Assembly (NCBI GenBank): GCA_012960315.1
Contig: DUBN01000005.1
Span: 4,490-42,557 of the forward strand
Source: Acidimicrobiia bacterium
Lineage (GTDB): Bacteria > Actinomycetota > Acidimicrobiia > Acidimicrobiales > Poriferisodalaceae
Direction: 5' to 3'
Length of the DNA stretch: 38,068 bases
Shown: one piece after another, positions 1-5,121 of the stretch
Layout of the letters: each line of letters starts with the position of its first letter
Numbering within the stretch: the first letter of the stretch is position 1
The notes under the pieces: model-generated
Database searches by the model: none
What the model saw: the letters and a program-made list of their open reading frames with translations, nothing else
What the model was told of the DNA's origin: nothing
Made by a program: the position numbers and the translations under genes

Positions 1-592
1 ACGGGCTCCAGAAGACCGTTTCCCAGCCGCGGTCGAAGACGCATGGGCGGCGGTCCAATGGGTTAGCCAGCATGGCGGCCAGATTGGCATCGACACTAAA
101 CGCGTAGCAGTGGGAGGTGACTCAGCAGGCGGCAACCTTGCCGCAGTAATGGCGTTAATGGCACGCGATGCTGACATTGACCTCAAGCTACAAATGCTCG
201 TCTACCCAGCAACTGACGCCTCGCAACACCACGATTCGTTTGACGAAAACAAAGATGGTCCCCTTCTGACAATAGAAGTAATTGACTGGTTCTGGTCCCA
301 CTATCTAGGTCCTGAACCAAGTGAAGAGATACTCAGCGACTGGAGGTTCTCTCCCGCCCAGGCCTCTAGTCACAGGGGTGTGGCTCCTGCCTATCTGGCA
401 ACTTGTTCAGCCGACCCGCTCCGCGACGAAGGAAATGCGTATGCCCAACTTCTTAGGTCAGCAAAAGTTCCTGTTAGCCACTCAATGTTCGAAGGTGAAC
501 CGCACGTCTTATTTCAACTGTTCAACGTCTGTGAGGGCGCAAAAACTCTGATCGCAGAGTGCGCCGCGGCACTGACAAAGGCCTTCGAATGA
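1..592 (+). CDS. alpha/beta hydrolase (HSL-type esterase/lipase), 5' truncated
   Basis: This is the C-terminal part of a hormone-sensitive-lipase-type esterase. The frame is open from base 2, so the true start lies before the window. It begins with RAPEDRFPAAVEDAWAAV, the conserved stretch between the oxyanion-hole region and the nucleophile. Then follows the nucleophile elbow GGDSAGGN, with the serine encoded near base 121. The acid is probably the Asp in CSADPLRDEG and the base the His in EGEPHVLFQ. The internal ATG/GTG near base 110 is not the start, because family sequence continues upstream. The stop overlaps the next gene start by four bases (ATGA), so the two are probably cotranscribed and translationally coupled. 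The substrate is unknown; a short-chain acyl ester is typical of the family. Confidence 0.9.
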   Translation, partial: RAPEDRFPAAVEDAWAAVQWVSQHGGQIGIDTKRVAVGGDSAGGNLAAVMALMARDADIDLKLQMLVYPATDASQHHDSFDENKDGPLLTIEVIDWFWSHYLGPEPSEEILSDWRFSPAQASSHRGVAPAYLATCSADPLRDEGNAYAQLLRSAKVPVSHSMFEGEPHVLFQLFNVCEGAKTLIAECAAALTKAFE

Positions 593-2799
593 GTAGCACC
601 GTGCGACGGGATAACTGGGGGATCGCGCACGTCGAATCCACAGACGCGACTGCAGCTTTCGAAGCTCAGGGTTGGGTAGCGGCCTCCGACCGGATCTGGC
701 AAATGGATTCTGACCGACTTAAGGCCCTTGGCAGATGGGCTGAAATCGTTGGCCCCAAAGCGCTAAAAGAGGACGCATTCTTCCGAAGGCTGGGGCTGGC
801 GCAAGTAGCCCAAGCCGATTGGGCTGCACTGAGCCCACAAGCACGCGATATGACCGAGTGCTACACAAAGGGTGTCAACCGGTGGTTGGAGGAACACTCC
901 AAAGGTCTTCCTGCCGAGTACGCGCATCACCCAGCACCGCCGGAGCCCTGGGAGCCCTGGCATTGCGTAGCGGTGTACAAGCTCCGTCACATCTTCATGG
1001 GCACCATGCATCGCAAATTGTGGCGCGGTTACCTCTTGGCCAAAACAGGGCCAGATGTGGTAGCTGCAATGAAAGGAGACCCAAATCAAACATCGGTTAT
1101 TGCTCGCGGAAACGGACCGCACTTAGATCTCCTAGCTGATCTTTCTCCCCTCCTCAACTCCCAATCAGAGCTTCTGAAAGCCTTGGTTGATATCGATGGC
1201 GGGTCCAATTCATGGGCCGTTCATGGCTCGCGAACCGTCAAGGGGAAGCCGCTGTTGGCTGGTGACCCCCACCGGGGGATTGAATTCCCCAACGTGTATC
1301 ACCAATTTCACATGGAATGCCCTGAATTCAACGTGATTGGGCTTGCTTTCCCTGGAGTCCCAGCATTTCCTCACTTTGGACACAACGACGACGTTGCCTG
1401 GTGCATCACCCATGGAATGGCGGACGACACAGATGTTTTCATTGAGACTGAAAGCCTTGAAGCGATTGAATGGAATTCTGAACTGGTTCGAGTCCGAGGC
1501 GATGGAGACGTTGAGGTATTTTGTGGCTCCACAGATCGCGGCCCTGTCGTAATCGGTGACCCGGCCGACGGCATGGCGCTCTCAGTCGCATGGACTGGCC
1601 TAATCGGGCAAGACACAACTTTCGAAGCTCTGCAACCAATGTTGGCTGCATCAACCTGCGAAGCACTCGAAAATAGTGTCCGACCTTGGGTGATTCCCGT
1701 CAACAACCTTTTGACCGCTGACCGTGATGGAAATATTTCCTTCAAGATCAGAGGACGCGTACTTCAACGACCGACGAGCAACCGTTGGACCCCAGTCCCG
1801 GGCAATGCCGAACATGCTTGGTCCGGAATCGAACCCGTGCCTTTCGAACAACTGCCAGGATTACGAAACCCCGAGAGGGGCTTTCTGGTGACTGCGAACA
1901 ATCGCATTAGCGATACTGAACCGTACATTTCACTCGATTTCGCCGGTCCTGCCCGTTACGACCGGATCGTCGAGCTTCTTGACGAACTTCCGAACGCATC
2001 CGGGGAAGATATGAAACGAATTCACGGCGACGTACTCTCCTTGAAGGCGCCTCCTATTGTTGAACTCTTAATATCGCGAGCAACTCGGTTTATGCATCCG
2101 CGAGGCAAATGGCTGGTGGACTCCTTATCGAATTGGGACTTCCAGGTGACTGAAGATTCGGTGGAGGCTTCGCTATTTGCAGTGATACGCCGTCGATGGT
2201 GCGAAAGTGTCGGAGAAAGACTGGGAGTGTCTACTGCTCAGTTCGGGGCACCGAGCTGGCCTTCACCTGAAGTCGCAAGTCGAATGCTTTTCGAAGCGGC
2301 AACGACATTGCTCTTCAACGATGCTTGGAAGTGCATACCAGGGCTCGAAACAGATGATGATCTTGATGGGGCATTGTCGGCTTGTATTGACGAGACTTTG
2401 GAAGAACTTGAGCTTCGCCTCGGGGAAAACACCTCTGAGTGGACGTGGGGTCAACTACACAGGATGGCCTCACCTCATCCTCTCGCTTCGGCTTTAGAGG
2501 AAGCGAGACATCTGCACCCGCCTTTAGACAGCTGCCCGGGCGACGGAGACACTGTTAGATGCGGAGCAGTGATTCCTGAGACTGGAGAACGAGCGGCCGC
2601 CGCGTCGGTAGCTCGATATGTCTTCGACCTAGCTGATTGGGACTCTTCAGGATGGATTGTCCCTCATGGAGTATCAGGCGTGCGCGAGTCTGGACATGAC
2701 ATGGATCAGCGCTCTAAATGGCTCGACTGCGAACTGCTACCTATGACGTTCACTAAAGCATCGGTGTTATCTGCTACTCAAGAACAATTCGACTTATAA
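589..2799 (+). CDS. penicillin acylase (penicillin amidase) family N-terminal nucleophile hydrolase
   Basis: A 736-residue Ntn-hydrolase of the penicillin/acyl-homoserine-lactone acylase family, which cleaves amide bonds. These enzymes are made as one chain and cut autocatalytically into alpha and beta subunits. The beta chain would begin at Ser206 in GGSNSWAV, matching the family SNxW nucleophile motif. Next come the conserved GKPLLAGDPH and FGHNDDVAWCIT segments, the latter around the oxyanion/substrate region. NNRIS lies further on. The ATG at 589 overlaps the esterase stop and starts immediately before the conserved N-terminal STVRRDNWGIAHVES stretch; an in-frame start at 559 would only add unsupported residues. 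I see no clear signal peptide, so the protein may act in the cytoplasm, unlike many periplasmic relatives. The substrate could be an N-acyl amino acid, a lactam or an acyl-homoserine lactone; the sequence does not decide. Confidence 0.93.
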   Translation: MSSTVRRDNWGIAHVESTDATAAFEAQGWVAASDRIWQMDSDRLKALGRWAEIVGPKALKEDAFFRRLGLAQVAQADWAALSPQARDMTECYTKGVNRWLEEHSKGLPAEYAHHPAPPEPWEPWHCVAVYKLRHIFMGTMHRKLWRGYLLAKTGPDVVAAMKGDPNQTSVIARGNGPHLDLLADLSPLLNSQSELLKALVDIDGGSNSWAVHGSRTVKGKPLLAGDPHRGIEFPNVYHQFHMECPEFNVIGLAFPGVPAFPHFGHNDDVAWCITHGMADDTDVFIETESLEAIEWNSELVRVRGDGDVEVFCGSTDRGPVVIGDPADGMALSVAWTGLIGQDTTFEALQPMLAASTCEALENSVRPWVIPVNNLLTADRDGNISFKIRGRVLQRPTSNRWTPVPGNAEHAWSGIEPVPFEQLPGLRNPERGFLVTANNRISDTEPYISLDFAGPARYDRIVELLDELPNASGEDMKRIHGDVLSLKAPPIVELLISRATRFMHPRGKWLVDSLSNWDFQVTEDSVEASLFAVIRRRWCESVGERLGVSTAQFGAPSWPSPEVASRMLFEAATTLLFNDAWKCIPGLETDDDLDGALSACIDETLEELELRLGENTSEWTWGQLHRMASPHPLASALEEARHLHPPLDSCPGDGDTVRCGAVIPETGERAAAASVARYVFDLADWDSSGWIVPHGVSGVRESGHDMDQRSKWLDCELLPMTFTKASVLSATQEQFDL

Positions 2800-2860: not shown

Positions 2861-3955
2861 ATGGCATTAACCGAATACGAAAGCGAACTAGATATCGACC
2901 CGATGTTCGCTACCACTCACAGGGAAGTATGGCAGCGTCTTGGGGAGTGTGGGACTTGGTGGACAGGAACTCAACGCGTTGCAGCGATGAGCGAGGTTCG
3001 TGCCGCGTTTGAATGTCAATTGTGTTCGGAACGTTCAGATGCCCTTAGCCCGTCAATGATCGAAGGAACGCACGACTCTGTGTCGGAGCTTCCCAGACAA
3101 GCGGTTGACCTAGTCCACAGATTGACAACCGATCCAGGTCGTTTAACCCAAGAATGGGCGAACGCCACCATCAACGCTTTAGGCGAAGAGCGTTATGTGG
3201 AACTAGCGATAATTGTTTGCACCCAATACGTGATCGAAAGTTTTGCTAAATGCCTCGGCTTGGCTCTTCTGGAACTGCCTACGCCAGGTGACGGAGCTCC
3301 CAGCCAAGTCCGACCGACAGATGTTGGAGACGTTGGCGCCTGGGTCAGTCAAACATTGGACAAAGCTTTGGCAAATGTCTCGCGAGCCGGATCTTTGGTT
3401 CCCGACACCGAAGTTCTCTGGCGCGACATCGTCCAATGTCATTACAGCCGAGGACCAGAATTCGCTGAACTCGTCTGGAACCGTGCGCTTAGTCGACCTC
3501 AAACAGAGCTGGTGGCGTCCACTGTTTCCTTACTTAACGAGTGTTTCTACTGAACGGCGGCCCATGTATCGCTGCTCCGTGCGAGTAGCGAAGCCATCAA
3601 CACTGATGTCAAAATTGAACAACTTGAGAACGGGGCGAACGTTGAGCACGGATCGGCTCTGGTGCGATACACCGAGTCCGCAGTGCGGCTAGACAGTGAT
3701 CTCGCCGAATCCCGCAAGCATTTGCTGCGAATCGCCGGCTCGCAGGCCTTAGTCGAGGCAGCCGCGACAGTGTCTGCATTTGAAGGGCTCAATCGCATCG
3801 CTGATGTGACAGGTATTCAATTGGATTCCGGATTAGCCGACGAATCAGCTGACTTCAGGTCCGAGCTTGGCCTTGATTCTTACGCGGGTGCCACGAGCAC
3901 AAAGTCAAACGGATCCGCTCAACGAGCCGGCAACGTCATCGGTATCTTTCGCTGA
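2861..3955 (+). CDS. AhpD-like two-domain redox protein, predicted selenoprotein (CxxU active site; in-frame UGA at 3551-3553)
   Basis: Read straight through, this frame encodes 364 residues with one TGA at codon 231. Upstream of it is LLNECFY and downstream TAAHVSLLR. With TGA as selenocysteine the active site reads C228-F-Y-U231-T-A-A-H235, and E216 lies twelve residues before C228. This reproduces the spacing of catalytic Glu, CxxC and His in AhpD (E118, C130, C133, H137 in the M. tuberculosis enzyme), with Sec at the second, peroxide-attacking cysteine. The downstream 133 codons are open in the same frame and look like protein (LVRYTESAVRLDSDLAESRKHLL). A second motif, CQLC (C52, C55), lies in the N-terminal half after WWTGTQRVAA. 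A SECIS-like hairpin follows the TGA. The likely role is a thiol-dependent peroxidase or related peroxide defence. Alternatives are a nonsense mutation or a sequencing error. The Sec machinery is not in this window. A conventional gene caller would split this into a 230-residue protein and a fragment starting near 3662. Confidence 0.82.
3569..3591 (+). promoter_or_regulatory. candidate bacterial SECIS element
   Basis: The nine-base arm 3569-3577 pairs with 3583-3591, including one G-U wobble. The apical loop is CGUGC at 3578-3582. The loop starts 24 bases after the UGA codon, and G is its second base, as expected of bacterial SECIS elements read by SelB. A GGC/GCC pair at 3559-3561 and 3593-3595 could extend the stem after an internal loop. 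It lies inside the coding sequence, as bacterial SECIS elements do. Confidence 0.7.
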
Positions 3956-3986: not shown

Positions 3987-5114
3987 TTAGTCACTTGTGA
4001 TTTGGGGCTCCCTTGGCAGACCCAAAAGTCGTTCTCCAATAATGTTTCGTTGAATCTCGCTGGAACCGCCAGCGATACGCATGCCAGGGGAGTAGAGCAA
4101 AGCTTGGATCGATGCACTGGTGAGCATTGAATGGGCACCGTGCAATGACGCGGCTAACTGAGCTTCGTCGTAACCCAATTCGCTGTTCATCAACTTAGCT
4201 ATCGGAGCTATACGTGAGTCGCCACCCCTGCGTTCCATGAGCGATTGAAGTGCCTTCCCACGATTGAGGATCTCTATAAGACCGTCAATTTGCAGCGGAT
4301 TGACATCACCGGCGCCTCGGATCATGTCCTCCAGACGGCGACGGAGACTGATGACGCCCGAGGCGCCAGCGCCACCGCGTTCGTCTTGCAACACCGCCAT
4401 AGCCACCGCCCATCCGCCGTTGACGTCACCTAAGACAGCATCAGAGGGAACTAACACATCGGAAAAAAACACTTCACAAAACTCGCTTTCGCCGGTCATT
4501 TGTTTAATCGGCCGCACCTCAACGCCGTCGAGTGCCATATCAAGCAAAAAGAAAGTGATGCCCTTGTGTTTTGGCTGTACGAAATCGGTTCTGGCCATGA
4601 GAATGCCAAACTGCGCCAGCTGAGCGTTTGAGGACCAGACTTTTTGACCATTCAGAACAAAGTGATCTCCATCAAGAATCGCGGAGCTTTGTAGCCCTGC
4701 TAAATCAGACCCTGCTCCAGGCTCACTGAACAACTGACACCAAAGAATGTCGTTACGCAACGTCGAGCGAAGAAAGCGCTCACGCTGGCTCTCAGTTCCG
4801 GACCGCATAATGGCTTCGCCTGCAAGCACCAGCCCTTGCAGGTTCAGGTACGGCGACACCTCCGCAGTCGCGCATTCCTCATGCCAAACGACGTTGTGCT
4901 CGGGCGTCAAACCCATGCCACCGCATTCACTTGGCCAGTGCACCCCAGCCCACCCATGGTCGAAGCAGAATCGCTGCCAATGCATCGCCTCCATGTGCAG
5001 GTCCGGAGGCAAAATCGCCCCATAGGCCGGACAAGCATCGCCCGAAGCAACGGCTTGCGTAATGAAGAGTGCTACCTCGTCCCGAAACTTGTCGAGATGA
5101 TGATCGTTACGCAC
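3987..5114 (-). CDS. acyl-CoA dehydrogenase family protein
   Basis: A FAD-dependent acyl-CoA dehydrogenase of about 375 residues, which oxidises an acyl-CoA to an enoyl-CoA and passes electrons to ETF. The middle domain carries WCQLFSEPGAGSDLAG and the FAD/substrate strand VLNGQKVWSS; KQMTGESEFCEVFF follows. The C-terminal region has AGGSSEIQRNIIGERLLGLP. The position of the classical medium-chain base Glu (EGTSEIQR) is Gly here, as in many FadE paralogs that place the base elsewhere. A TTG at 5120 is another possible start, but GTG at 5114 is preferred because TACGGT lies 7 bases before it. It is convergent with the AhpD-like gene, 31 bases away, and divergent from the M20 peptidase. The substrate is not predictable; steroid side-chain or branched acyl chains are possible given the neighbouring terpenoid-like genes. 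Confidence 0.93.
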   Translation of the reverse strand: MRNDHHLDKFRDEVALFITQAVASGDACPAYGAILPPDLHMEAMHWQRFCFDHGWAGVHWPSECGGMGLTPEHNVVWHEECATAEVSPYLNLQGLVLAGEAIMRSGTESQRERFLRSTLRNDILWCQLFSEPGAGSDLAGLQSSAILDGDHFVLNGQKVWSSNAQLAQFGILMARTDFVQPKHKGITFFLLDMALDGVEVRPIKQMTGESEFCEVFFSDVLVPSDAVLGDVNGGWAVAMAVLQDERGGAGASGVISLRRRLEDMIRGAGDVNPLQIDGLIEILNRGKALQSLMERRGGDSRIAPIAKLMNSELGYDEAQLAASLHGAHSMLTSASIQALLYSPGMRIAGGSSEIQRNIIGERLLGLPREPQITSD

Positions 5115-5121
5115 AGACAAG

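Follow-up and report, generated by a model that had tools for sequence, protein, structure and literature searches.

The plus-strand frame at 2861-3955 of the window, i.e., of the whole 38,068-nucleotide stretch of DNA analysed here, is broken by a single internal TGA at 3551-3553 (codon 231) before its terminal TGA at 3953-3955, and the question it raises is whether this codon ends a gene or is translated, and as what. With codon 231 read as selenocysteine (Sec), the frame yields 364 residues. Standard-code ORF calling (Table 11) gives 2861-3553 (230 aa) and 3662-3955 (97 aa), i.e., the two truncated genes that the original prediction had expected from a standard annotation. That prediction described an AhpD-like selenoprotein with a CxxU active site, and its coordinates and residue numbers (TGA 3551-3553; E216, C228, U231, H235) were correct on re-reading. 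Its central claim is borne out by the conserved TGA, the Sec machinery of the genome, a hairpin past the codon, the dN/dS values, and the invariant residues. On the strength of these sequence comparisons, the gene almost certainly encodes a bacterial selenoprotein of family NF041238, consisting of two fused AhpD-like domains with Sec231 in the redox site.

The translated frame matches the NCBIfam model NF041238 (AhpD_rel_CFYUT, "alkylhydroperoxidase-related (seleno)protein") at 367 bits (cut-off 175), and the alignment covers positions 3-356 of the 357 in the model. It carries the CFYUT motif of the family as NECFYUTAAH, with the predicted Sec at U. A 2026 review (PMC13188914) describes NF041238 as an AhpD-related selenoprotein family with CxxU and equates it with "hypothetical protein 1" from the Sargasso Sea survey published in 2005 (PMC1088965). 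In comparison with NF041238, nothing sets the protein apart: the match is full-length, and CFYUT, CxxU, and the predicted Sec site are the same. The match to PF02627 (the CMD / AhpD-like superfamily; 29.6 bits) is above the Pfam gathering cut-off of 23, and that to the AhpD core domain TIGR00778 (23.7 bits) is under the cut-off of 27.8; the protein is therefore filed as AhpD-related rather than as AhpD. It also scores under the cut-off of the peroxidase-related family TIGR01926 (34.6 bits; cut-off 81.8), whose members share CxxU in the AhpD core but have about 200 aa and a single AhpD domain. The same CxxU is shared with the AhpD-like 1 and AhpD-like 2 selenoproteins of the GOS survey (PMC2398784). 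The two-domain form in an actinobacterium had been singled out as noteworthy, but it is the standard form of NF041238 (model length 357), known since 2005. As the family was reported in 2005 and is curated at NCBI, the gene is an ordinary member rather than a discovery; it belongs to an already known family and leaves existing ideas on selenoproteins unchanged.

Table 1. Features of the window and related loci (prefix L) outside it
Feature	Position	Strand	Evidence or remark
NF041238 selenoprotein gene (predicted), complete, 364 aa	2861-3955	+	367 bits vs cut-off 175; putative Sec at UGA 3551-3553
In-frame UGA codon, predicted Sec231, second place of the C228-x-x-U231 dyad	3551-3553	+	TGA in all full-length homologues found
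SECIS-like hairpin, 9 bp, 5-nt loop CGUGC	3569-3591	+	fold energy, published criteria, covariation
N-terminal AhpD-like helical domain (predicted), aa 1-164, degenerate site	2861-3352	+	structure matches; C52xxC55 present
C-terminal AhpD-like catalytic domain (predicted), about aa 157-334, E216/C228/Y230/U231/H235	3329-3862	+	PF02627, AF2, alignment
Penicillin amidase family gene, upstream neighbour	559-2799	+	syntenic in relatives
Acyl-CoA dehydrogenase, downstream, convergent	3987-5120	-	syntenic in relatives
NF041238 paralogue	L071:2851-3885	+	TGA at CFYU
NF041238 paralogue	L072:3109-4161	+	TGA at CFYU
NF041238 paralogue	L073:2142-3245	-	TGA at CFYU
Single-domain AhpD-like selenoprotein candidate, CHYU motif, TIGR01926	L072:2439-3047	-	same genome
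Single-domain CHYU candidate in a relative	L074:1623-2201	-	counterpart of L072:2439-3047

When 99 related genomes were searched, the closest hits, with identities between 94% and about 31%, all contained one internal TGA. Where the codons were read directly, the CFY-TGA context was present in every full-length member examined and a Cys codon in none; with TGA in the same motif of all full-length homologues, its position is not due to chance. The TGA agrees in 20 loci of a second, named collection (assemblies labelled Acidimicrobiales, Acidimicrobiaceae, Acidimicrobiia, Ilumatobacteraceae, Microthrix, and the like), which overlaps the first for several loci and hence is not fully independent of it. 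No Cys-containing full-length member was found among the relatives and a phylum sample of 396 genomes. In comparisons with congeners, the part before the TGA has a dN/dS of 0.09-0.14 and the part after it 0.08-0.24, i.e., roughly 0.1 in both, and substitutions downstream of the TGA cluster at third codon positions; translation thus continues past this codon in frame. That the TGA is a genuine stop, arising by nonsense mutation or assembly error and leaving a pseudogene or two ORFs, agrees with the two fragments of standard ORF calling but has practically no chance of being true, being refuted by the recurrence of this TGA in independent assemblies and by selection as strong after it as before, and opposed also by the full Sec machinery of the genome.

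The window holds seven long in-frame TGA junctions, of which only that at 3551-3553 lies in a CxxU redox motif. The others appear to be chance occurrences, none of them being in a CxxU or UxxC motif. AhpD proteins with several Sec residues were likewise considered, as some hits contain up to four in-frame TGA codons (e.g., G022:C93, G019:C104), and dismissed: in these hits, a single Sec codon (NECHYU) precedes a normal TGA stop, and what follows is read-through past the end.

All four components whose presence in the genome had been posed as a check were found. Of the conditions named beforehand as refuting the prediction, neither homologues devoid of both Cys and Sec at the site nor a genome lacking selB or tRNA-Sec was encountered. 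The tRNA-Sec scores 65 bits, above the family cut-off, and has the anticodon tca; selA is directly adjoined by selB; and selD (L050) has an in-frame TGA of its own, so that it is probably a selenoprotein as well. In the phylum sample of 396 genomes, NF041238 is above its cut-off in four, and all four contain a strong selB match (E-values 1.2e-84, 9.4e-80, 3.2e-81, and 1.7e-97). Alternatively, UGA might be reassigned genome-wide or read by a near-cognate suppressor, residue 231 then being Trp, Gly, or Cys. This is very improbable. Nothing specific speaks for it, and against it stand the use of TGA as an ordinary stop, which terminates 12 of the 26 window genes tested and the NF041238 gene itself, the presence of tRNA-Sec, selA, selB, and selD, a conserved SECIS-like hairpin past codon 231, and a Cys at the equivalent position of AhpD.

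This hairpin starts 15 nt past the UGA, with its apical loop 24 nt past it, and its 23 nucleotides fold at -13.2 kcal/mol (z -4.1); the fold of a longer 76-nt stretch around it is unexceptional (z -1.0). The bacterial SECIS model (PMC13188914) specifies a loop of 3-9 nt with a G within the first two positions, a stem of 4-16 bp, a distance of 16-37 nt after the UGA, and a minimum free energy of at most -7.5 kcal/mol. On all four criteria of that source the hairpin lies within the limits, given G as the second loop nucleotide, 9 bp, 24 nt, and -13.2 kcal/mol. Among 44 distinct homologues, the pairing is retained in 88.9% of cells, compared to at most 58% for slid partners, and five of the nine pairs have compensatory changes, altered on both sides. 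RNAalifold recovers the inner seven pairs unprompted; the outer two are weak, and several changes are one-sided, involving G-U pairs. A subgroup of homologues (L071, L073, and L047-L049) has the apical loop GGUCU in place of CGUGC, presumably similar to the SECIS loop of E. coli fdhF. A scan of the window for Rfam families and tRNAs found none.

Three more NF041238 paralogues were identified in the same genome, each matching the family model and each interrupted at CFYU by a single in-frame TGA. One of them is adjoined divergently by the single-domain CHYU candidate, and a second genus of the family retains this pair. At the locus itself, the penicillin amidase and acyl-CoA dehydrogenase neighbours are retained in closer relatives, which fits vertical inheritance of the NF041238 gene; we do not claim a functional link. 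Phage and plasmid collections contained no relatives.

An alignment of 36 sequences shows no variation at the active-site residues E216, C228, and H235 or at position 231; Y230 is located inside the dyad. In M. tuberculosis AhpD, the corresponding residues are Glu118, Cys130, Cys133, and His137 (PMC3141380). The 12/3/4 spacing is identical, as the original prediction had it, with Sec at the second Cys. The prediction called this site the peroxidatic cysteine: the dyad position is right, and it is better named the second dyad cysteine (Cys133 in M. tuberculosis AhpD). The Glu-x11-Cys-x2-Cys/Sec-x3-His relay and the helix-turn-helix core are common to this protein, M. tuberculosis AhpD, and the P. 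aeruginosa AhpD-like protein PA0269, and the Tyr inside the dyad is shared with PA0269. Unlike both, it has Sec for the second Cys and two domains fused in one chain.

These observations suggest the following scheme. SelB and Sec-tRNA(UCA), guided by the hairpin just past the UGA, would insert Sec at codon 231, an event that, judging from the sequence, very probably takes place. The folded protein would comprise two AhpD-like domains joined in one chain. An AhpD-type proton-relay site (E216, C228, Y230, U231, H235) would lie in the C-terminal domain, with Sec in place of the second CxxC cysteine. A thiol/selenol oxidoreductase function is most likely. By analogy with established AhpD chemistry, a Cys-Sec selenenylsulfide route would probably serve for the reduction of organic hydroperoxides or of a disulfide partner.

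Confidence in the AF2 model is high (pLDDT 92, pTM 0.92). Its best solved whole-length structural match is human Sestrin2 (Z 16.4 over 237 residues, rmsd 3.5, 11% identity). Matches to single-domain AhpD proteins cover residues from about 157 to 333 at Z 7-12; unrelated rows score 3.9 or less. The N-terminal 164 residues alone retrieve only AhpD-like proteins, at Z 5.5-7.9, a modest range for a helical domain, before the scores drop from 5.5 to 2.6. The model hence predicts two AhpD-like domains in tandem, the second of which holds the Sec site, a minor addition to the description of the family, for which the two-domain length is the norm. The N-terminal domain is without equivalents of the relay Glu and His. 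To judge from helix boundaries, C52 and C55 appear to be placed as C228 and U231 of the second domain; conservation of these two cysteines does not extend to the paralogues, and a CxxC at the equivalent place is kept in only part of the family.

The likeness to sestrins underlies the better-surviving alternative, namely, that the AhpD-like fold has been kept for a mainly regulatory or ligand-binding role, as in sestrins, and not for peroxidase activity. Sestrin2 as the best whole-length match and the loss of Glu and His from the N-terminal domain speak for it. We nevertheless consider it unlikely, because the E-C-Y-U-H site is complete and invariant and Sec, a costly residue, has been retained, both of which indicate redox catalysis; regulation could be a further role. 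Fused AhpD pairs of bacteria in which the C-terminal half is catalytic are already related to sestrins in PMC11429811, whose passages on these pairs do not mention Sec. Sestrins are defined (PMC4674687, PMC11429811) by a catalytic Cys in the N-terminal domain and a C-terminal domain containing DDYDY. Our protein as predicted, sestrins, and the bacterial fused proteins of PMC11429811 all have AhpD-like domains in tandem, of which one is catalytic and the other degenerate. The catalytic site, however, is in the C-terminal domain here and at the N-terminal Cys125 in Sestrin2, and DDYDY is absent from the translation; thus, two AhpD-like domains in one chain are present in the predicted fold, but the Cys/DDYDY arrangement of sestrins is not. 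It remains a tentative idea, less probable than not by a wide measure, that NF041238 selenoproteins are bacterial sestrin-like fused AhpD pairs in which the C-terminal Sec site is catalytic and the degenerate N-terminal half is resolving or regulatory.

For NF041238, a family for which we found no tests of enzyme function in the literature, the analysis adds a large set of conserved sequences. These marine Acidimicrobiales very probably decode UGA as Sec, and in this genome four paralogous enzymes would be truncated at their active sites by a gene caller that does not handle Sec.
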